In this document: in pieces, positions 11,883-23,375 of the stretch
Numbering within the stretch: the first letter of the stretch is position 1
How the letters are laid out: the number at the start of each line of letters is the position of its first letter
Assembly: GCF_900107595.1 (NCBI RefSeq)
Contig: NZ_FNQF01000008.1
Coordinates: 1-64,000, forward strand
Length of the DNA stretch: 64,000 bases
Reading direction: 5' to 3'
Source of the DNA: Psychroflexus halocasei
Lineage (GTDB): Bacteria > Bacteroidota > Bacteroidia > Flavobacteriales > Flavobacteriaceae
Notes under the pieces: model-generated
Told to the model about the DNA's origin: nothing
What the model saw: the letters and a program-made list of their open reading frames with translations, nothing else
Databases searched by the model: none
Translations under genes and position numbers: made by a program

Positions 11883-12256
11883 ATTGATAAATAATAGATG
11901 AAAGACTGAAATTAATAAACATATTCAAAAATACTCTTAAGGAAAAGTTTAAGTTAGATAGCAGATTTTAGATGGTAACTGGTAGGTATTAAACTTTAGA
12001 TAATAGACTTATCTACGTCCATAATCGGGTTCAAGGATTACATATATCTTGGGTCTGTAGTCTTGGGTCTGTAGTCTTGGGTCTGTGGTTTTTGGTCTAC
12101 TTTCTTTTTGTTGGAGTGGTTTTTGGAGTTTAACTAAGCAAGCGCATTACCTTTGACACAAGGAGTAAAAAACTCAGTAGTTAACAAGCTACATGATTTA
12201 TTTGTTATAATTGTTTTAAAATTCTAATTTTTAGTATTCCCGTATAAAACAAATTC
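11883..12256. other. Non-coding gap before the cysteine operon
   Basis: No gene is visible. The stretch holds low-complexity TAGATTTTAGAT-like sequence and the 14-base tandem repeat listed separately. The right end carries the promoter of the cysteine attenuator; a weak TTTT/TTAG around 12228-12234 may be its -33 element. Confidence 0.5.
12047..12102. repeat. 14-bp tandem repeat, three copies plus a degenerate fourth
   Basis: The unit TCTTGGGTCTGTAG occurs at 12047-12060 and 12061-12074, with a one-base variant at 12075-12088 and a decayed copy after that (TTTTTGGTCTAC). It lies in a non-coding gap. No function is visible; slippage-prone copy number is likely. Confidence 0.85.
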
Positions 12257-12264
12257 TATATTTG
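12257..12264 (+). promoter_or_regulatory. Predicted promoter -7 box of the cysteine attenuator
   Basis: TATATTTG matches TAnnTTTG exactly. It places the transcription start near 12271, about 14 bases before the ATG of the leader peptide. The -33 element is not a clear match. Confidence 0.6.
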
Positions 12265-12284
12265 CATTGTAAAATCACTTCATA

Positions 12285-12347
12285 ATGAAAACATTATCGT
12301 TAAAACAGACTTGTTGCTTCCCTATTTATAGGGCAATACTGTTATGA
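12285..12347 (+). CDS. Cysteine leader peptide (20 codons, tandem Cys)
   Basis: A short frame ATG...TGA reads MKTLSLKQTCCFPIYRAILL. It contains two adjacent Cys codons (TGT TGC, 12312-12317) and lies between a canonical promoter box and an intrinsic terminator that precedes cysE-cysM. This is the layout of a ribosome-stalling leader peptide. When charged Cys-tRNA is scarce, a ribosome halted at 12312-12317 would leave 12334-12342 free to form the antiterminator. When it is plentiful, a ribosome at the stop codon covers that segment. The function is inferred from layout; I did not compare with other genomes. Confidence 0.75.
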   Translation: MKTLSLKQTCCFPIYRAILL

Positions 12348-12410
12348 TCATAATTCTAAAAATATCAAATCATTAAAGCCCTTCAATTATAGTATTGAAG
12401 GGCTTTTTTT
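12320..12410 (+). terminator. Cysteine operon attenuator: terminator plus competing antiterminator
   Basis: The terminator stem is AAAGCCCTTCAAT (12375-12387) with ATTGAAGGGCTTT (12394-12406), 13 bp, followed by a T run to 12410. The competing helix pairs 12334-12342 (CAATACTGT) with 12389-12397 (ATAGTATTG), 9 bp with one G-U, and destroys the loop-proximal terminator stem. A small hairpin CCCTA/TAGGG (12320-12333) directly after the Cys codons could pause polymerase or hold the 12334 segment. All pairings were read directly; the switching is inferred. Confidence 0.75.
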
Positions 12411-12421
12411 ATACTGAAAAA

Positions 12422-13234
12422 ATGAGTAAAACTATTTTCGAAAAAAATAAAAAGTGGTCGTGCTGCTTACCCGCAAAACAGAATACAGAAAAATGGATAG
12501 AAGAATTTTTCTATTGGTTTTATGGCATAGATGAAACCCATATCACATATACCAACTTTAAAAAGGAAGAAGAAGAGCTAAAAGAACAGCTGTTTGAAAT
12601 TTTAGCAAGTGTAACAGAAAAGGAACAAGCAAAACAAGAGGCGGATCGTTTTTTTGAGAAGCTTCCAAGCCTTCATGATATTTTGGAGGAAGATTTGGAG
12701 GTTATCTATAATTTTGACCCAGCAGCGCAAAGCCGTAGTGAAATACTACTCTCTTATCCTGGTTTTTTTGCCATTACATTTCATAGGATAGCGCATTGGC
12801 TCTGGAAACAAGAGATTCCTGTGATACCGCGGTTAATTTCAGAGTACGTACACTCAAAAACAGGCATTGACATTCACCCAGGAGCACAAATAGGAAAAAG
12901 GTTTTTTATAGACCATGGGACAGGTATTGTTGTAGGTGAGACCACTATTATCGGAGACGATGTAAGATTATATCAAGGGGTAACCTTGGGTGCTTTAAGT
13001 GTTGCCAAAAACCTAGCAAAACAAAAACGACATCCTAGCATAGGGAACCACGTCACTATTTATGCCAATGCAACCATTCTAGGCGGAGAAACCAAAATAG
13101 GAGATCATAGCATTATAGGCGGAAACGTATGGCTTACAAATTCGTTACCGAGTTATACTGTCGTCTATCATAAAAGCGAGGTCATTGTAAAAGATAATGA
13201 AGCATTTCCTCCACCTATCAATTTTATCATATAA
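12422..13234 (+). CDS. cysE: Serine O-acetyltransferase
   Basis: CysE acetylates L-serine with acetyl-CoA, the first step of cysteine synthesis. The 270-residue product has a helical N-domain and a C-terminal left-handed beta helix of hexapeptide repeats. 'GIDIHPGAQIGKRFFIDHGTGIVVGE' (about 146-171) holds the catalytic His, and 'GVTLGA' the CoA site. The open frame extends upstream through the terminator stem to a TTG, but the ATG at 12422, just past the T run, is the sensible start. It is followed 22 bases later by cysteine synthase, the next enzyme, and both lie behind the cysteine attenuator. Confidence 0.95.
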   Translation: MSKTIFEKNKKWSCCLPAKQNTEKWIEEFFYWFYGIDETHITYTNFKKEEEELKEQLFEILASVTEKEQAKQEADRFFEKLPSLHDILEEDLEVIYNFDPAAQSRSEILLSYPGFFAITFHRIAHWLWKQEIPVIPRLISEYVHSKTGIDIHPGAQIGKRFFIDHGTGIVVGETTIIGDDVRLYQGVTLGALSVAKNLAKQKRHPSIGNHVTIYANATILGGETKIGDHSIIGGNVWLTNSLPSYTVVYHKSEVIVKDNEAFPPPINFII

Positions 13235-13256: not shown

Positions 13257-14168
13257 ATGAAAGCAAATAGCATTTTAGAACTTATTGGGAATACCCCAGT
13301 TGTTAACTTAAGAAGAATCTATAAAACCCACCCTAATGTGTGGATAAAAACAGAAAAAAACAATCCAGGCGGAAGTATTAAAGACCGTATCGCTTTGGCT
13401 ATGATTGAAGATGCAGAAAGAAGCGGAGCTTTACAAAAAGACGGCCTAATAATAGAACCAACCTCAGGAAACACAGGTATAGGCTTAGCAATGGTAGGTG
13501 CAGTAAAAGGCTATAAAGTCATTTTGGTAATGCCAGAATCTATGAGTGTCGAACGCCGTCAATTAATGGAAGTTTATGGCGCTGAATTTGTGCTCACTCC
13601 AAAAGAAAAAGGAATGAAAGGAGCTATAGAAAAAGCTATGGAGATGGTCGCTGAAAACCCTAAAGCATGGTCTCCGAGACAGTTTGATAACAGCATAAAT
13701 GTTAAAGCGCATATGCAAACAACTGCCATGGAGCTTATCGAAGATTTTCCAGAAGGAATAGACTATCTTGTTACAGGTGTAGGAACCGGTGGACATATTA
13801 CAGGTGTTGCAAAAGTTTTGAAAGAAAAATTTCCTGCGCTAAAAGTTTATGCTGTAGAGCCAGCACAATCTCCTGTTTTGTCTGGTGGAGAACCAGGACC
13901 ACATCCATTACAGGGAATAGGAGCAGGATTTGAACCAAGCATTTATGAATCTTCTTTGATAAACGGGGTAATAACCGTTGAGAAGGAAGAGGCTTTTAAT
14001 TATACTAAAAAAGCAGCATTAAAAGAAGGTTTGCTAGGCGGAGTTTCTACAGGAGCTTCACTAGCTGCGGTAGCAAAATTACTTCCAGAGATTCCCGAAA
14101 ACGCGAAGGTACTTAGCTTTAATTATGACACAGGTGAGCGTTACTTATCTGTTGAAGGATTGTTTTAA
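13257..14168 (+). CDS. cysM: Cysteine synthase (O-acetylserine sulfhydrylase)
   Basis: This PLP enzyme converts O-acetylserine and sulfide into cysteine. Lys42 in 'NPGGSIKDR' binds PLP; 'TSGNTG' (69-74) is the substrate loop; '[10 protein letters not shown]' (about 175-184) binds the PLP phosphate. At 303 residues it matches CysM/CysK. The choice between CysK and CysM is not certain; the short C-terminus and 'SPRQFDN' favour a CysM-type name. It is co-transcribed with cysE and ends before a strong terminator. Confidence 0.93.
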
Positions 14169-14232: not shown

Positions 14233-14265
14233 AAATATCGAGGCTTTTAAGTCTCGATATTTTTT
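14233..14265 (+). terminator. Intrinsic terminator of cysE-cysM
   Basis: AAATATCGAG (14233-14242) pairs with CTCGATATTT (14253-14262) over a 10-base loop, followed by T residues. It lies 65 bases after the cysM stop. Confidence 0.85.
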
Positions 14266-15405: not shown

Positions 15406-15442
15406 AAAATATTGATAGGCCTAATTCTACACATTTTATTGC

Positions 15443-16863
15443 GTTTCAATTCCATTAAGGTGCGATTAAAAGTGAGAAAGACAACGATCAGAAATCAAAC
15501 CTTACAATATTTCAATTCCATTAAGGTGCGATTAAAAGTTTTGAATATGAAGATGGAATAACTACGCATGACTAATTTCAATTCCATAAAGGTGCGATTA
15601 AAAGAAGAGAGGAGCGTGCAAAGCGTGAGAAGTTAGAAGCATTTCAATTCCATTAAGGTGCGATTAAAAGGGATTAATAAAAAATCATTCAATTATTGTT
15701 ACAGGTATTTCAATTCCATTAAGGTGCGATTAAAAGTATAAAAGAATCACGCTTGTTAATAACGGAGATTTATTTCAATTCCATTAAGGTGCGATTAAAA
15801 GCTGAAGAGGAATGCGTAGTTATTAATTTAAAGGAATTATTTCAATTCCATTAAGGTGCGATTAAAAGGAACTTATACGGGGGGGTTGATCTACGACCCT
15901 GAGGGATTTCAATTCCATTAAGGTGCGATTAAAAGTCTATAGTTAAGTTAGAGTAAGCATTAAGCATTCCTATTTCAATTCCATTAAGGTGCGATTAAAA
16001 GTCGTTTGATAATATCAAACTCGTAGGAATTTAACCCAATTTCAATTCCATTAAGGTGCGATTAAAAGAAAAGCAAAAAGAAATAATCAAAAAAGACAAA
16101 GAAGAATTTCAATTCCATTAAGGTGCGATTAAAAGAACACATAATCTGCCGTAGCTACGCCTCTTATTCCTATTTCAATTCCATTAAGGTGCGATTAAAA
16201 GTCAAGTCCCATTTCGGCTATACGTTCAGCTTCTGCAAATTTCAATTCCATTAAGGTGCGATTAAAAGACCAACTACACGCATATTTGCTTTCAGTACTT
16301 GTGAATTTCAATTCCATTAAGGTGCGATTAAAAGCAGAGCTAATAGAATGCGAAGATGAGCATAATAACATATTTCAATTCCATTAAGGTGCGATTAAAA
16401 GGCTAACTTTTGCTTTAATTCAGCTCCAGTCATTAATATTTCAATTCCATTAAGGTGCGATTAAAAGTTGATTGTCTGCATGGTTTTAGTTTTTAGGATT
16501 AAATTTCAATTCCATTAAGGTGCGATTAAAAGGCTAAGAATGGTTGGAAAGAAGCAAATCATTGGATATTTCAATTCCATTAAGGTGCGATTAAAAGAAA
16601 TAATGAATACCGCCTGCGAGGGCGTTCAAGCTTAATTTCAATTCCATTAAGGTGCGATTAAAAGAAAGAAAAAAAGTAGTGCTTATGATAAGGCTAACAA
16701 ATTTCAATTCCATTAAGGTGCGATTAAAAGAAATATATTTTTCTTGCTTTCTTGATAACCCAAGCAAATTTCAATTCCATTAAGGTGCGATTAAAAGGTG
16801 TTTCAAGGCTTTTTTCCAACCTGCAATGTATTCATTTCAATTCCATTAAGGTGCGATTAAAAG
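15443..16863 (-). CRISPR. Type I-B CRISPR array, 22 repeats, 21 spacers
   Basis: The 30-base repeat reads ATTTCAATTCCATTAAGG...GATTAAAAG on the plus strand. Repeats begin at 15443, 15509, 15575, 15641, 15707, 15772, 15839, 15906, 15972, 16039, 16106, 16172, 16239, 16305, 16372, 16438, 16503, 16568, 16635, 16701, 16768 and 16834. Spacers are 35-37 bases and all differ. On the minus strand the repeat ends in ATTGAAAT, the usual 5'-handle of I-B crRNAs, so transcription is leftward, from the cas2 side. The two imperfect repeats, at 15443 (first base G) and 15575 (CCATAAAGG), are both at the far left, as expected for the oldest end. Confidence 0.99.
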
Positions 16864-17069
16864 CCGTCGCAATCGACGACAAAAAAAGCCTATTTCCAAG
16901 ACTTGGCAAATCTACTACTTTCTATTTTAGCCTGCAAAAAGCGTCGATCTGTAATAGCCGATTTTTACCTTAGGTTCGACAATGAGATAAATTATTTATT
17001 TTCAGGAGTTTAAGTTCAGAATGTCAAAGAACTTACCTTTTGTATAAATTTTTGATTGAGAGCGACGCC
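16864..17069 (-). promoter_or_regulatory. CRISPR leader
   Basis: This 206-base gap between cas2 and the newest repeat is where the leader should lie. Directly next to the repeat is an inverted repeat, CGTCG-CAAT-CGACG (16865-16878), which could mark the integration site or form a hairpin at the pre-crRNA 5' end. The array promoter lies inside. No open frame of note is present. Confidence 0.7.
16907..16938 (-). promoter_or_regulatory. Predicted promoter of the pre-crRNA
   Basis: On the minus strand TTTG (16938-16935), 20 bases, then TAGATTTG (16914-16907) match the Bacteroidota promoter TTTG-N(~20)-TAnnTTTG at every fixed position. The start would fall near 16900, about 37 bases before the first repeat. 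This supports independent leftward transcription of the array. Confidence 0.7.
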
Positions 17070-17364: not shown

Positions 17365-18369
17365 TTACCACCAAATTTTAAAAGGTTTATAGTTGTTTAT
17401 GCCTAAAATATGCTTGCTTAGTTTGTAGCATTCCAATTTCACCAGGTGTTTATAGCTCACGTGCTTTTTGAGGGCTCGATGTTTTATCGTTTCGTTAAGG
17501 CGATCCTCAAAAGTTTTGATAAAGGCTTTTTTGCCCGATTCTTTCAACACAACACGATTTACTTTTACATCAAAATCTTTGGCTTGCAATTGTTTTTTAT
17601 TCAAAACCTTGAAAATAGTACGATCTACTAAAATAGGCTTAAAAATTTCAGCTAAATCCAAAGCCAGCGAATATCTGCGGTACCCGGGCTCATGCAAAAA
17701 ACTAATGGTTGGATTGAGCTGTGTATGGTAAATTTGGTCTAAACATAAGGTATAGCATATCATATTGCCAAAAGAAATCAATGCGTTAACTTCATTTTGG
17801 GGTGGTTGTTTGCTGCGTCCTTCCATTTTAAAATTCTTGATAATTTCATCAAAAGCCCCATAATAAGTGTGGCGGATATTTCCTTCAATACCCATCAAAG
17901 TTTCAATATCCTGTGTCTGTTCTATGAGTTTTTCATATTCCTGAATCCTATCTAAATAAGCTTGAACATCACGGTCGCGGTTTTGATAGTATTTTAAATT
18001 TTTCTGGATATTAAATGTAGCGCCTTTTACAAACTGTTTGGCGATGACCTGTCGCTTCTTCGCCGATTGGTAATGTTGGGTTTGTTCTATTTGCATCTTC
18101 CCGGCCAAAAGATATTCTTTGGGTTGGAAACTTCCGGTGTAATGTTCGTAATAATCAAAAAAATGAACACTTATCTGATTCTTTCCTAAAAAATTATACA
18201 TAGCGCTATTGGCATCTAATGACCCGAAACAGAAAAGGTTGGAAACTCCTTCTACGGGTAAGTACTTTGGCTTTTTTTCTTTTCCGTCTTCATCAACAGG
18301 GATGAATTTTAATGTATTGTCTTTTCGGCTTAAGCGACCCGGATTAAACAGGTAGTAAGATTTTTTCAT
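17365..18369 (-). CDS. cas1b: CRISPR-associated integrase Cas1 (type I-B)
   Basis: Cas1 integrates new spacers. The 334-residue protein has the N-terminal beta domain with 'YYLFNPGRLSRKDNTL' typical of Cas1b. The helical catalytic domain has metal ligands at Glu162 ('GIEGNIR'), His226 ('FLHEPGYRRYSLALDLAEIF') and Asp238/Glu241 in the same motif. 'NALISFGNMICY' is also conserved. It lies 3 bases after the cas4 stop. Confidence 0.98.
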   Translation of the reverse strand: MKKSYYLFNPGRLSRKDNTLKFIPVDEDGKEKKPKYLPVEGVSNLFCFGSLDANSAMYNFLGKNQISVHFFDYYEHYTGSFQPKEYLLAGKMQIEQTQHYQSAKKRQVIAKQFVKGATFNIQKNLKYYQNRDRDVQAYLDRIQEYEKLIEQTQDIETLMGIEGNIRHTYYGAFDEIIKNFKMEGRSKQPPQNEVNALISFGNMICYTLCLDQIYHTQLNPTISFLHEPGYRRYSLALDLAEIFKPILVDRTIFKVLNKKQLQAKDFDVKVNRVVLKESGKKAFIKTFEDRLNETIKHRALKKHVSYKHLVKLECYKLSKHILGINNYKPFKIWW

Positions 18370-18372
18370 ACG

Positions 18373-18897
18373 TTATGAATTGCTTGGTGTATCAGGTTGG
18401 TCTGAGTAACAAAAATCAAAATAGCTGCAACTTCGACAGATGCGAGCGTGTAAAAGCGGCGGGCATTCCTCTCGGGTAACGATATCTTCTACCATTTGTT
18501 TCCAAGCTTCAATTTTTTTGGTATCACCATCTTCCCACTCCACCACTTGGCGTTGTCGTAATTTGGGATATTCTATAATTGCCGACGGATCTTCAATACC
18601 GTTTTTTCGTAAGATGTATAGGTAATATTTAACTTGTGCGATATGTGCTTCCTCAACTTTATTTGATTTTTTTACTTCATGAACCACATTTTCTTTAGGA
18701 TCATAAAAGTCAATTTTGATACCGTCCATCGCCAATTCGGTGTATTTTTTCGCGCGCTCTGGATAGCTGGTTTCACCTATAAGTTTTCCCTCGGCTACGG
18801 TTTGGGAGGTGTGTTCCATTCTTACTCCGTGATAATGTAGCCATAATTCGCGATGGCAAACATGAAGTAAATTTATATGTGTGGCGTTGATTAGCAT
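18373..18897 (-). CDS. cas4: CRISPR-associated exonuclease Cas4
   Basis: Cas4 trims prespacers and helps select PAM-bearing ones. The 174-residue RecB-like nuclease shows Asp63, the Glu74-x-Lys76 pair ('HEVKKS') and Gln88-x3-Tyr92. Cys14 and Cys154/157/163 ('CRSCSYFDFC') should hold a 4Fe-4S cluster. Its start overlaps the cas3 stop in TAATG, so translation is probably coupled. Confidence 0.96.
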   Translation of the reverse strand: MLINATHINLLHVCHRELWLHYHGVRMEHTSQTVAEGKLIGETSYPERAKKYTELAMDGIKIDFYDPKENVVHEVKKSNKVEEAHIAQVKYYLYILRKNGIEDPSAIIEYPKLRQRQVVEWEDGDTKKIEAWKQMVEDIVTREECPPLLHARICRSCSYFDFCYSDQPDTPSNS

Positions 18898-21695
18898 TAT
18901 AAAAATTGTGTTTCTACAGCTCCAAAGTCTTCATCATTCATTCCCGCTTCAAAATCATAAAATTGATTCCAGTCTTGAATGTATTTGTAACCGTAATCGC
19001 TTCTTTCTTCATCTGAAAATTTGACTATTTCTGTTTTTATTTTTTCGGAGGCAAAAATGGAAAAGATGAAATTGGACAGGATGCCCTGAAGGATTTTGTG
19101 ATTGATCTTTTTATTGATAAAGCTTTCATTTTGTTCAATCAAATTGATGTATAACTTAAAAACAGCTTCGCCATTTATTTTATTCCCTTCAATTGGTTCG
19201 ATTCCGTTTTCCATCAAAAAATCCCATTCACTTTTGGTAAAAGTATAATCAATATCATTTCCAATTTTGGAAATAATCACGGGTATATTTAAAGGTATAA
19301 AACAAGAAATATTCTCTTGGTCAATAAGTTTAAAATTATCCTTTACCGATTTAAATTTTAAAGTTTCTACCAGATTTTTGTAATCATTGAATTTTTTTAA
19401 ATAGGGTGTTTCGTTTTGTTTATTTCTTAGGCCAATTACAGAATCATAATACAAAGCATCGAAATCTTTATTCTTTAAAATGCCTCGATACTCTTCGGGT
19501 TTCAATTTTCTTGAAATTTTTAATCGTTCATCTTTTCCGTAAATAAAACCGGCCTTATCATATTTAAACAAGAAAAGCTTACAGTCCTGTTTTTTGATAT
19601 TGCGGTTAATGCGTCCGGCCAGTTGCTCATCACTATCAATAAGGGAACGGTCTTTAAAACCGATGTCCATATCAATATCAACACCGGCTTCTACCACTTG
19701 GGTTGTAACGAGAAGTACACGTTTATTACGATTTGATTTGTCTTTAAGGTAATTGATAATATATCTTCGTCGTGGTTCGAGGATAGTCCCGGAAAGCAAG
19801 AAAACTTCATCAAAAAATTCACTTGATTTGAACAGCTGGAAAAATTCAGAAGCGGTTTTTTTAAAGATAAATTCAATAATCGTAAAAACACTATTACTAG
19901 GTTTAATCACACCAAATTCTTTTAGTGCGTATTTTTTTGATTCTTCAAGCAATTTTTCTTTTAACTGATCAAGTGAAAGATCTTTTTTCTCAAACAATTC
20001 AAAGTCGAAAACTATACGAGCACCAAAATTTGGATTTTGAAAGTAGTCTTTCTTAGAATTTGGAAGTAAATAAGTAAAATCTTGCTTTCTATCTTGTCCA
20101 ATTTTAAGTTTATCTATTTTCGGTAGCGTTGCAGACATCACAATAAATTTAATATTGAAACTCTGAGCATATTTTTTAATAAAATAAACAATCTTGTCCC
20201 AGTGTTTTGGCGGATAAGATTGCACTTCATCAATCACAACAACTGAATTGGCCAAACGGTGCAGCAGGTAGTTTGTCTCTTTTTCGTTGGTCTTTAAAAT
20301 ATCAAAAAACTTTATGTGCGTAAGAAGTGAAAATGGGAAATTTGCGAAAAGATGCTGGATGTAATTCATTTTTTTGTTTCCATAATCGTCATCTTCTTTT
20401 TCTGGAAATTTCTCTTGAAAACCGGCTTTTGAATGTAATTGAACAACATCCTCATCATTCAAACCGAAGGTATTCTTTACATTTTTAAAACTTTGCGTGA
20501 TCAGGGTTGTGAATGGAAACACATAAAACACCTTGTTTATTTTACCCTTGTTTGCTTCCAGAATTTCCAAAACCGTCAACAATGATAAATTGGTCTTTCC
20601 ACCACCAGTGGGAGCTTCGAGGTAATAGAGGTTTTCGTTAGGTTTTTTCCTAAAATTCTGAATCGTTTCCACGGCCATTGCTTGCCTAAGTTTGTTCAGG
20701 TTGTTAGCGCTGATTTCAGTTGGTTTTTCAGGAACATAATTTGGTTGTTGCATTTTTTTGTAAACATCCTTGTTGTAATTTTCTTCTGATTGGGCTTTAT
20801 CCAAAAAATCACTTGTCTTTACAAACTGAACTATTTCCTCAATTTTCTTTTTACTTAAAATCCCAAAATCATCAATTTTCGAGGTGTTCATATATTCGTG
20901 AGTCGCCAAATAATCTGAAGCTGTTAATAATGAGAAATTTAAGCGGCAAAGTGCATATAAGGAAAAGGAATGTTGATACTTTGTGAAACCGGGGTGGTTT
21001 AAAGCTTTAGAAGTGCCAATTAAATCATATAATTTGGGAATGATATCGAAATTATAGTGACGAACATAAGATTGCATAAAAGATTTAAGTTCGGCTATGT
21101 TAACTGTTTCCGTATCTTTCAAAAAACATAGGCTTTGCTCGATGTCGTCGTGCAGTTGAAAACCGTGGTGTTTAAAAATGGAGTAAGAAAAATACCAAGT
21201 CACCGAAAAGAGCATTGTTTTTTCAAGTTGACTGAATTTACTGGTTTGTATTTCTTGAAAATGTTGGGCTAAATAAATAAAGCCACCAAGTGAGGAGTGT
21301 CGTGAAGAAATTGGAGAAGACTTAATTTTATTAAATGAAGTGTTTTTCATTTTATCTACCTGAAAATTCTCGTTGATTTTTCCGTAATCGTGATAAATAA
21401 CAGTATCAAGGAAAAGTTTTTTAAGGTAATTACCGCAATCGTTTAATTCATAGAACTCATCTAGAAAATCCTTTATTAGAATATCAATTACAGGGTCAAG
21501 ATGATGAGCATCAATTATATTTTGGCAATAAGAATTAACCAGCTCAATATGTTCTTCTAACGTCTCGGGCTTTTTAGAGTCCTCAGAAGATGGGAGATGA
21601 GCCCAGTATTTTTCTGAACCGTCCAAGAGTTTATCAATCGATATGTTCTCTTTGAAAATTGAAGATGATTTTTTATACGAGTTGCACATAATCAT
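18897..21695 (-). CDS. cas3: CRISPR-associated helicase-nuclease Cas3 (HD plus DExH)
   Basis: Cas3 nicks and degrades target DNA after Cascade binding. The HD nuclease is N-terminal: His49, His102-Asp103 ('VIYHDYGKIN') and further His at 133 and 176-177. The SF2 helicase follows with Walker A 'APTGGGKT' (361-368), 'DEVQ' (489-492, in place of DEVH), 'SATLP' (521-525) and a late 'QLAGRINR' motif. The length (932) is normal for a fused Cas3. Two in-frame ATGs (21695 and 21689) both overlap the cas5 end; either could be used. Confidence 0.97.
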   Translation of the reverse strand: MIMCNSYKKSSSIFKENISIDKLLDGSEKYWAHLPSSEDSKKPETLEEHIELVNSYCQNIIDAHHLDPVIDILIKDFLDEFYELNDCGNYLKKLFLDTVIYHDYGKINENFQVDKMKNTSFNKIKSSPISSRHSSLGGFIYLAQHFQEIQTSKFSQLEKTMLFSVTWYFSYSIFKHHGFQLHDDIEQSLCFLKDTETVNIAELKSFMQSYVRHYNFDIIPKLYDLIGTSKALNHPGFTKYQHSFSLYALCRLNFSLLTASDYLATHEYMNTSKIDDFGILSKKKIEEIVQFVKTSDFLDKAQSEENYNKDVYKKMQQPNYVPEKPTEISANNLNKLRQAMAVETIQNFRKKPNENLYYLEAPTGGGKTNLSLLTVLEILEANKGKINKVFYVFPFTTLITQSFKNVKNTFGLNDEDVVQLHSKAGFQEKFPEKEDDDYGNKKMNYIQHLFANFPFSLLTHIKFFDILKTNEKETNYLLHRLANSVVVIDEVQSYPPKHWDKIVYFIKKYAQSFNIKFIVMSATLPKIDKLKIGQDRKQDFTYLLPNSKKDYFQNPNFGARIVFDFELFEKKDLSLDQLKEKLLEESKKYALKEFGVIKPSNSVFTIIEFIFKKTASEFFQLFKSSEFFDEVFLLSGTILEPRRRYIINYLKDKSNRNKRVLLVTTQVVEAGVDIDMDIGFKDRSLIDSDEQLAGRINRNIKKQDCKLFLFKYDKAGFIYGKDERLKISRKLKPEEYRGILKNKDFDALYYDSVIGLRNKQNETPYLKKFNDYKNLVETLKFKSVKDNFKLIDQENISCFIPLNIPVIISKIGNDIDYTFTKSEWDFLMENGIEPIEGNKINGEAVFKLYINLIEQNESFINKKINHKILQGILSNFIFSIFASEKIKTEIVKFSDEERSDYGYKYIQDWNQFYDFEAGMNDEDFGAVETQFL

Positions 21696-22443
21696 CGGTT
21701 TCTTTCAAATGATAAAGATTGTCAAGACTAAAGCTATTTTGAATAGCGTAATTCGTAAAGGCGAATTCCTCCAGTTGATATTGCATCAATTCCAAATCAA
21801 AATCTTTCGGCAGTCGCTCAAAATAAAGAAAAGGAACTTCTTGTTTTGAAAAATTAAGTGGATCTGGTAAAGGTTCTTCACTGTTGTCTTTTAAATTGCC
21901 TTTTTTATTAAACACAGTTAGAATATTGATTGATCCTGAACGGTCAGCTTTGGCCCCTTCAAAATCATAATTTTGAAAGCTATTTTTAGTCCAGTGCGCT
22001 GAAAATTCATTTTTACCGAAATACGGGATGTATTCAGTCTTTGCTTCTTGTAAATATTCCAAGAGTTTTTGGTGCAATTCATCCTTTTCGTCCAGCATTA
22101 TAAAAATACGGTAAGCCGGGTTAATAAGCGTGAGTTCTTCTGTCAAAAAATTGGAACCTTTATTAGCATAACCCACTGTATTGGTATATTTAATATTAAT
22201 TTTCTGAAAATTCCCTTTTTCGTGACCCAAAGGCCGGACCCCAATTTTGAGGTTTTTCAACAGCTCATAATATTGGGGCATCTCGCCTTTTTTCCGATAA
22301 CCGTTCAAACCCAAAACCGCACCCAGAATCCCTAAAATTGCGGGCTTATGGATGAGGTTGTAAGACAGGTTTATCGTGTTATTTGTATCTGGTTTCCGAA
22401 AAAATCCGAAATCAGCTTTTAAATCTATAGAAACGAGTTTCAT
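21673..22443 (-). CDS. cas5b: Cascade subunit Cas5 (type I-B)
   Basis: Cas5 caps the 5' handle of the crRNA. The 256-residue RAMP protein starts 'MKLVSIDLKADFGFFRKPDTNNT' and has 'HKPAILGILGAVLGLNGY' (about 32-49), the usual Cas5 pattern of a shielding N-terminal strand followed by a helix. It lies between cas7 and cas3 as in I-B operons, 17 bases after cas7, and its 3' end overlaps cas3. Confidence 0.93.
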   Translation of the reverse strand: MKLVSIDLKADFGFFRKPDTNNTINLSYNLIHKPAILGILGAVLGLNGYRKKGEMPQYYELLKNLKIGVRPLGHEKGNFQKINIKYTNTVGYANKGSNFLTEELTLINPAYRIFIMLDEKDELHQKLLEYLQEAKTEYIPYFGKNEFSAHWTKNSFQNYDFEGAKADRSGSINILTVFNKKGNLKDNSEEPLPDPLNFSKQEVPFLYFERLPKDFDLELMQYQLEEFAFTNYAIQNSFSLDNLYHLKETDDYVQLV

Positions 22444-22460
22444 AATGGATTTATTAAGAA

Positions 22461-23375
22461 TTAAAGCAGATGTTTTTCAGCAATTTCAGGTTCGTTAATC
22501 ACTTTTGTGTGCGCATCACTGTAATAAATCTCAACTTTTTCAATTTCATCTTTAATGTGATCTTGCGATAAAAGCTCATTTACTTTTTTGAAATCAATGG
22601 TTTTATCCTCATTTACATCTACTAATTCAACAAATGATGGTAGAACAATTCTCGAATCTTCTTTAAGCTGAACCCAAAATAAAAGTTCATTTTCAGTACC
22701 GGCTTTTGCCGATGAATCATAAAATGAAGCTCCACGTCGCAGGCCTTCTTTTAATTTTTTGATATCCTCATCGCTCAACGCTTGACCACTTATGCGATCC
22801 ACATCTTCCGCAATGTTTTTTGGATTTACCGAAAAATGGTGTACATAATGACCTTCTTCTAAACGGGATTGCGTTCCCAAGGTTGTCATTGTGCTATCTG
22901 CACTTTTTTCATTAGAATTTTTAAATGGCGACATTATTTGTTCAGAATAAATCACATTTTCCGGAAATTTATTTATTCCAGGAGTAATCTGGCAAGTTCC
23001 GTGAAGTGAAATATTTGTTTTTCCGGCATAGGTGCCACCAAATAACCTCACATCAAGACAAGTCAATAAATTTTCCAAAACTTCAAGACGCAGCTTTGAT
23101 TTATCTTTTTCATTTTTAAATTCTTCGAAATAATGAAGATATGTTTCGTCTAAAGTTCTTGGCGCCATTTTTTCATTCAAAGATTTAAAATAAAATATCC
23201 GTTCGCCCATTACCTCTTTAAGATAGTTTCTAATGGAATATTTCAAAGCTTTATCCGTGGCATAAACTTTACCGTTTGGTAATTTTCGCGGTTGGCCGGA
23301 AAAATCAGCGTTGTAGTTTGAATTAACGGATTTTATGATGGCGCATCCGTAAACGCGATTGTTAAATGAACTCAT
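22461..23375 (-). CDS. cas7b: Cascade backbone subunit Cas7 (type I-B, Csh2-like)
   Basis: Six or so copies of Cas7 bind the spacer part of the crRNA. The 304-residue product begins 'MSSFNNRVYGCAIIKSVNSNYNADFSGQPRKL' and contains 'LETCLDVRLFGGTYAG'-like sequence ('LLTCLDVRLFGGTYAGK', about 105-121), the hallmark of Csh2/DevR-family Cas7. The start overlaps the cas8b end by 4 bases (ATGA). Confidence 0.95.
   Translation of the reverse strand: MSSFNNRVYGCAIIKSVNSNYNADFSGQPRKLPNGKVYATDKALKYSIRNYLKEVMGERIFYFKSLNEKMAPRTLDETYLHYFEEFKNEKDKSKLRLEVLENLLTCLDVRLFGGTYAGKTNISLHGTCQITPGINKFPENVIYSEQIMSPFKNSNEKSADSTMTTLGTQSRLEEGHYVHHFSVNPKNIAEDVDRISGQALSDEDIKKLKEGLRRGASFYDSSAKAGTENELLFWVQLKEDSRIVLPSFVELVDVNEDKTIDFKKVNELLSQDHIKDEIEKVEIYYSDAHTKVINEPEIAEKHLL

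Follow-up and report, generated by a model that had tools for sequence, protein, structure and literature searches.

Classical attenuators, such as the His, Trp, Thr, and Ilv leaders, follow a 1:2, 2:3, and 3:4 layout with their control codons in region 1. To our knowledge, the control of cysteine synthesis in Bacteroidota has been little described. The leader open reading frames (ORFs) of mycobacterial cys operons are reportedly called cysteine responsive in the title of a 2020 study by Canestrari et al.

The closest described systems include Cys-rich leader ORFs upstream of mycobacterial cys operons (Seliverstov et al. 2005, PMC1262725), in a paper whose passages on leaders also give cysteine leaders for Propionibacterium acnes and for B. 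longum cbs. Canestrari 2020 is cited for the mycobacterial cys operon leaders in passages of PMC13236596 and PMC9094748. As these ORFs are presented in the passages of PMC1262725 devoted to them, the Cys run lies near the stop codon, the ORFs are called leaderless, and no conserved terminator hairpin was found. A second system is the uORFC-8-2 motif upstream of cysS in Rhodobacterales, for which ribosome-mediated attenuation was proposed (PMC8632094). Leader-peptide attenuation has been described upstream of amino-acid operons in Flavobacterium psychrophilum (PMC9723704), and small ORFs occur in the 5' regions of Bacteroides thetaiotaomicron (PMC7366714); both papers concern 5' leader ORFs in the phylum studied here, and their main-text passages on these ORFs name no cysteine leader.

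The element that we describe lies in a 64,000-nt stretch of Psychroflexus halocasei DNA, the whole of which is called the window below. It shares the layout of the His, Trp, Thr, and Ilv attenuators and differs from them in its control amino acid, cysteine. Like the mycobacterial leaders, it is a short ORF with a run of Cys codons before cysteine biosynthesis genes; unlike them, it has an intrinsic terminator and a matched antiterminator and belongs to another phylum. Its Cys codons are codons 10 and 11 of 20 and a terminator is present, which places it outside the leaderless poly-Cys group. With uORFC-8-2, as far as that motif is set out in PMC8632094, it has in common tandem Cys codons in an upstream ORF (uORF), two stems, and a terminal U-run. 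That motif serves a cysteinyl-tRNA synthetase in Alphaproteobacteria, whereas the window element precedes cysE-cysK (in relatives also cysHDN) in Bacteroidota and so is not a member. Among the papers listed in searches of an open-access library, none describes a cysteine attenuator from Bacteroidota, and the attenuator survey across bacteria by Lopatovskaya et al. (2010) might include some. An earlier note on this DNA had called leader-peptide control of cysteine synthesis uncommon and named no case in the phylum. The kind of mechanism is known, and the combination of amino acid and gene appears to be new in this phylum.

Parts of the leader and the genes downstream

The window element and the genes that follow it comprise these features, all on the forward (+) strand.

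12257 to 12264, +: TAnnTTTG box TATATTTG, 20 nt 5' of the leader ATG and probably the -7 element of a Bacteroidota promoter
12285 to 12347, +: leader ORF MKTLSLKQTCCFPIYRAILL, 20 codons plus stop (ATG at 12285, TGA at 12345 to 12347), supported by the enrichment of Cys uORFs
12312 to 12317, +: tandem Cys codons TGT TGC, read in the sequence; predicted stall site
12312 to 12338, +: 1:2 hairpin, in the minimum-energy fold and the centroid
12330 to 12334, +: region 2 (AGGGC), candidate antiterminator strand, starting 15 nt past the start of the last Cys codon
12378 to 12382, +: region 3 (GCCCT), within the 5' arm of the terminator, pairing with region 2 (pairing and cross-locus swap tests)
12375 to 12410, +: intrinsic terminator, with a 13-bp stem (12375 to 12387 with 12394 to 12406), a loop at 12388 to 12393 (TATAGT), and a T-run to 12410
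12422 to 13234, +: cysE, serine O-acetyltransferase of the CysE/EpsC type (profile models)
13257 to 14168, +: cysK-type cysteine synthase, 22 nt 3' of cysE (profile models)

The earlier note had placed the -7 box, the 20-codon ORF with its TGT TGC pair, a small hairpin after the Cys codons (12320 to 12333), and the 13-bp terminator (12375 to 12406) ahead of cysE. Each is there: the box is read directly, the ORF and its Cys codons lie where described, the hairpin sequence is CCCTATTTATAGGG, and a T-run follows the stem. Of 14 Cys-leader loci, 10 have TAnnTTTG, which we take to be the -7 consensus of Bacteroidota, within the 80 nt 5' of the leader ATG (shuffles, mean 1.23 and maximum 4). By eye, no -33 element is seen 5' of the window box, and the transcription start is a predicted one. 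Further upstream, 5' of the box, positions 12047 to 12098 hold a direct repeat of the unit TCTTGGGTCTGTAG with 14-nt spacing.

In the 1:2 hairpin, the Cys codons (12312 to 12317) pair with 12333 to 12338, and 12321 to 12324 pair with 12329 to 12332; folded alone, the leader that forms this hairpin has a z score of -1.95. The whole leader RNA folds at -36.5 kcal/mol, compared with -22.1 ± 3.4 for shuffles (z score of -4.24; none of 200 shuffles folds as well). Three terminator-like matches came out of the scan, with 2.4 expected in 3.5 kb, and this terminator is the strongest. No Rfam family matches the leader region at gathering score, the sole match in the window being a tRNA elsewhere; by this covariance-model test the element belongs to no Rfam riboswitch or T-box family.

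The first gene passes the SAT/EpsC model NF041874 (161.1, over 150) and falls below the cutoff of TIGR01172 (178.3 versus 210.65). The second had been called cysM in the earlier note. It scores 392.8 bits with TIGR01139 (cutoff, 350.95) and 257.7 with the cysM model TIGR01138, below the cutoff of 394.2, which rules out cysM and makes the gene cysK-type. cysE and cysK are adjacent in 113 of 157 long loci. Among the 12 Cys-leader loci with sequence beyond cysE, cysK follows within 190 nt in 9; in L046 it lies at 248 nt, and two Runella loci have no cysK. After cysK, positions 14235 to 14265 hold an inverted repeat (ATATCGAG/CTCGATAT) with T residues behind it; seen by eye and absent from the terminator-scan list, it is probably the terminator of the cysE-cysK operon. 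Farther 3' of cysK lie a CRISPR array (15412 to 16870), whose shared repeat ATTTCAATTCCATTAAGGTGCGATTAAAAG has a spacing of about 66 nt, and cas genes of a type I-B-like system called by PADLOC (Cas1, Cas4, Cas3, Cas5, and Cas7; 17365 to 23375).

Antiterminator pairing and the proposed switch

We tested pairing in 14 loci, the window included, that were chosen for a Cys leader and a terminator, blind to pairing. L115 and L208, near-copies of L113 and L077, were left out; L064 and L077, both Runella and related, were retained here and in the swap test below. The region after the Cys codons pairs with the 5' arm of the terminator beyond what shuffles give (Fisher P = 2.2e-10). Pairing of the same region with the loop plus 3' arm gives P = 0.44, and with the 3' arm alone, 0.68. 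Likewise, 35 control terminators, from the window and the flanks of L031 to L070, show no 5'-arm pairing (median P = 0.44), and in 2,000 random sets of 14 controls the Fisher statistic was at most 56.9, compared with 102.3 for the Cys-leader set.

Swapping leaders among 20 attenuators, closest copies omitted, provided a covariation test that needs no alignment. Each leader prefers its own arm, with a mean rank of 4.7 where 10.5 is expected; none of 100,000 permutations was as good, so the P value of 1e-5 is a floor. The earlier note had looked to relatives for conserved Cys codons before a terminator and for compensatory changes in the helices. Cys-rich leaders do persist in many relatives, at the same place ahead of a terminator, and the swap, which addresses compensatory change, shows pairing specific to the own 5' arm. 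Region 2 starts 6 to 20 nt past the last Cys codon in 12 of the 14 loci and in 15 of 18 cysH-type attenuators treated below, and its end falls between 21 nt upstream and 16 nt downstream of the first stop-codon base. One locus, L057, gives no sign of an antiterminator helix (P = 0.80 and 0.66).

In the window, the helix joins AGGGC (12330 to 12334) to GCCCT (12378 to 12382) over 5 bp, at -9.2 kcal/mol with flanks and -10.4 when extended. It stands at the weak end of the set, nonsignificant alone (P = 0.07 to 0.11) and ranked 7th of 20 in the swap. The antiterminator of the earlier note was a 9-bp pairing of 12334 to 12342 with 12389 to 12397. That complementarity exists (-7.5 kcal/mol), but relatives lend it no support as an antiterminator, the loop-plus-3'-arm and 3'-arm values above being those that bear on it; the partner is the 5' arm. 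The element thus has a leader ORF with control codons for the amino acid of the regulated pathway, an intrinsic terminator between that leader and the first gene, and, for the locus set more than for the window by itself, an exclusive antiterminator after the control codons.

The switch that we infer, with a stalling ribosome reporting cysteine as the cell's signal, would work as follows. With cysteine plentiful, the ribosome would translate past the Cys codons, reach the stop (12345), and cover region 2 (12330 to 12334); the terminator (12375 to 12406) would then form, and transcription would end before cysE. With charged tRNA-Cys short, the ribosome would stall at TGT TGC and break the 1:2 hairpin, and the freed region 2 would pair with the nascent 5' arm of the terminator, letting RNA polymerase enter cysE-cysK. 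Were there no translation, the 1:2 hairpin would mask region 2 and the terminator would win. If the footprint of a ribosome is assumed to cover either Cys codon, and RNA polymerase to stand at 12397, the folded RNA contains the 2:3 helix; with the footprint at the stop, the terminator has no competitor. The complete terminator (-18.9) beats the 2:3 helix at equilibrium in every folded state that contains it, so the switch must be kinetic, the choice being made while RNA polymerase moves. From the sequence evidence, we put the probability that the window element is a ribosome-mediated attenuator sensing charged tRNA-Cys and controlling cysE-cysK at roughly 0.9. Related bacteria with the same switch probably sense cysteine shortage through the ease with which Cys codons are read.

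A stalled ribosome might instead act on translation, by opening a structure that masks the cysE start. A second class of loci speaks for such control: in 11 loci (L125, L126, L130, L131, L133, L135, L136, L137, L162, L170, and L191), a Cys run lies at or near the end of the leader (e.g., ...NCCCCLCCCCGC and ...SNTCCCC), 52 to 77 nt before cysE, and no terminator was found between leader and cysE. Their CysE proteins group with a row from Melioribacteraceae (Ignavibacteriota) in a quick-method tree of 144 CysE proteins that left out 13 rows from 600-kb genomes. In it, nine labeled second-class rows form one group relative to the other labeled rows (support, 89), with four unlabeled rows inside; L162, L170, and L191 lie outside the tree sample. 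The leaders of this class resemble the mycobacterial cys leaders as presented in PMC1262725, and it is possibly a translational or Rho-dependent version of the system. In the window, however, the 13-bp stem with its T-run ends at 12406, ahead of cysE at 12422, and the partner of region 2 across the set is the terminator 5' arm, so that we consider translational control of the window locus very unlikely.

Cysteine codons upstream of cysE and their carriers

Successive searches yielded 260 cysE loci (30, 80 named, 50 new, and 100 stretches, all 100 placed by match coordinates), including Spirochaetota, Bacillota, and other phyla. They cover all but 14 of 127 match places of one search and all but about 48 of 114 of another. 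There are 250 nt of upstream sequence in 258 of the 260, and 248 are nonredundant. Within those 250 nt, tandem-Cys uORFs starting with ATG occur in 34 of the 248 loci, compared with 6.2 ± 2.7 in dinucleotide shuffles (z score of 10.5); the 34 thus include chance ORFs, with about 6 expected. When all 20 amino acids are scored alike, cysteine is followed by tryptophan (3.3) and glutamine (2.4), and the reverse strand gives a tandem-Cys count of 11. A terminator with a stem of at least 8 bp and a T-run, preceded at 10 to 70 nt by the end of a Cys-rich ATG uORF, is found at 11 of the 248 loci; the 40 shuffle sets have a mean of 0.02 and a maximum of 1, and the next amino acid, leucine, reaches 5. 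The element is thus absent from the majority of cysE loci: a qualifying terminator of any kind occurs at 18 of 248, among them the 11 with the uORF. A looser search finds a terminator-like hairpin in 26 of 248 loci, of which 10 have an ATG Cys-rich uORF, two have one with another start (L077, GTG; L259, TTG), and 14 have none.

These counts bear on the idea that a chance ORF sits between a promoter and a constitutive terminator and that its Cys codons mean nothing. Terminator-like sites and short ORFs are common, as the three matches in the window scan illustrate, and the window antiterminator is nonsignificant by itself. Yet no amino acid but cysteine shows strong enrichment in the uORFs that precede cysE, the joint pattern was seen 11 times for 0.02 expected, and the element occurs in all 10 rows of the CysE clade of the window, leaving this account highly improbable. 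The cysteine reading of the window leader is strongly supported, and with it the core claim of the earlier note, that a Cys-keyed leader-peptide attenuator precedes cysE, which the leaders of relatives and their own-arm pairing bear out.

Two accounts that leave the Cys codons no role as a stall site fare equally poorly. Alternative hairpins are also used by some known 5' elements, and the leader could be a riboswitch, a T-box, or a protein-bound RNA that senses cysteine or O-acetylserine, the ORF being incidental. Against it stand the empty Rfam search of the leader and the fact that distant loci share Cys codons, pairing, and spacing, with neither sequence nor stem length conserved; we give it hardly any credence. 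Equally faint is the case for an active leader peptide, such as a metal- or thiol-binding small protein: some Flavobacterium leaders keep extra residues, e.g., CNMCC before both cysH and cysE, but distant loci share by eye little besides the Cys run, and region 2 lies inside the ORF in most Flavobacterium leaders.

A Cys cluster is present in 32 of 32 attenuators collected, this being the criterion for collection. Examples are METIRTFACCCCFIR in a Runella metagenome-assembled genome (MAG; L064), MINKLFCCACCCTP in a Bacteroidetes MAG (L066), and MFLDQIYMACCKCCFRIREGLAMS in Flavobacterium suaedae (L032). Two candidate leaders before cysE, MGHQRMAIQCCQ in L031 and MHHYKLEKHTCCNIDSKMFV in L033, were rejected as chance ORFs within cysN; the true leaders of these operons sit before cysH.

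In the CysE tree, the window protein groups with Flavobacterium, in a set of 10 rows (SH-aLRT, 99) that all have the element, placed ahead of cysE itself or ahead of its whole operon. Seven have it directly before cysE (L001, L032, L034, L111, L113, L115, and L116). In the other three (L031, L033, and L112), cysN directly precedes cysE in cysH-D-N-E-K operons, and the attenuators lie before cysH (L261, L263, and L262, respectively); the L031 operon genes pass the models for cysH, cysD, cysN, and cysK. Other carriers, namely, two Runella, L046, L066, L005, and L057, are found elsewhere in the tree. The class I label needs 3 changes on the tree, compared with 8.7 with shuffled labels, when labeled rows only are counted. 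Eighteen genomes of the genus of the window have a CysE match, and the five read (L025 to L028 and L030) have no terminator within 350 nt upstream of cysE. Their CysE proteins, 47 to 50% identical to that of the window, fall in another clade (support, 100). Because the window CysE lies outside the clade of these sampled relatives, the cysE-cysK unit may have been transferred together with its attenuator.

Serial attenuators upstream of cysH in Flavobacterium

A search with L031 CysH found matches in 11 of 12 genomes, in 8 of 249 family genomes (at 1e-60), and in 80 of 150 genomes from the genus of genome G173; the best 30 of these 80 were read. In total, 45 cysH loci were scanned over 1,500 nt upstream for any Cys-rich ATG uORF with a terminator behind it. 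Two complete attenuators in series, within 370 nt upstream of cysH, are present in 8 of the 10 best genus matches (L262 and L283 to L289); L291 has one and L290 none. In their leader regions, L283 does not differ from L261, nor L289 from L263, so the tandem count stands at eight Flavobacterium genomes. Among the remaining 20 of the best 30 genus matches, 19 have no attenuator in the stretch read. None was found in 1,500 nt upstream of cysH in L264 to L269 and L276 to L282, nor at the weak CysH matches L270 and L271, the latter in the genome of the window itself. The one exception among those 20 genus matches is L299, where a Cys attenuator lies 689 to 557 nt upstream of cysH. The gene behind it encodes an Rrf2-family regulator and is the first of a cysH-cysD-cysN operon, so that control of sulfur assimilation may be layered here.

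The serial arrangement is our most surprising result. A TAnnTTTG box precedes the first leader in seven of the eight pairs and the second in none, so both attenuators would lie on one transcript if the box is the promoter. All 18 attenuators tested have 5'-arm pairing at P < 0.1 (0.003 to 0.096), and the combined Fisher P of 4e-17, compared with 0.03 for the loop plus 3' arm, is inflated because many are homologous. Several tandem leaders carry runs such as MMMCMCC and MMMMCCM. A noninitial Met codon lies within three codons of the Cys cluster in 24 of the 32 leaders, many of the 24 being homologous. Dual sensing of Met and Cys is an idea rather than a result, and the window leader has no such Met codon.

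Taken jointly, these observations tilt us, by a little over even odds, toward a widespread family of Cys attenuators that governs sulfur assimilation in Bacteroidota and was missed because neither sequence nor stem length is conserved. In Flavobacterium, cysHDN-cysEK would then stand behind one promoter and two serial attenuators, with several leaders joining Met and Cys runs. Transcription would enter the operon only when each checkpoint signals that sulfur amino acids are short, which would make the response steep or dependent on two amino acids. The branch that groups with Ignavibacteriota would be a second version, without a terminator and with its Cys codons at the leader end.

The predicted element offers a mechanism, acting in cis and open to testing, by which cysE-cysK and, in relatives, sulfate assimilation could be controlled. 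It would extend leader-peptide attenuation with terminators to cysteine biosynthesis in Bacteroidota, at a site that gives no match in the Rfam library. The Met codons of the Flavobacterium leaders raise the question of a two-amino-acid sensor, and the serial double attenuator that of what a second checkpoint with identical logic may add to the first.
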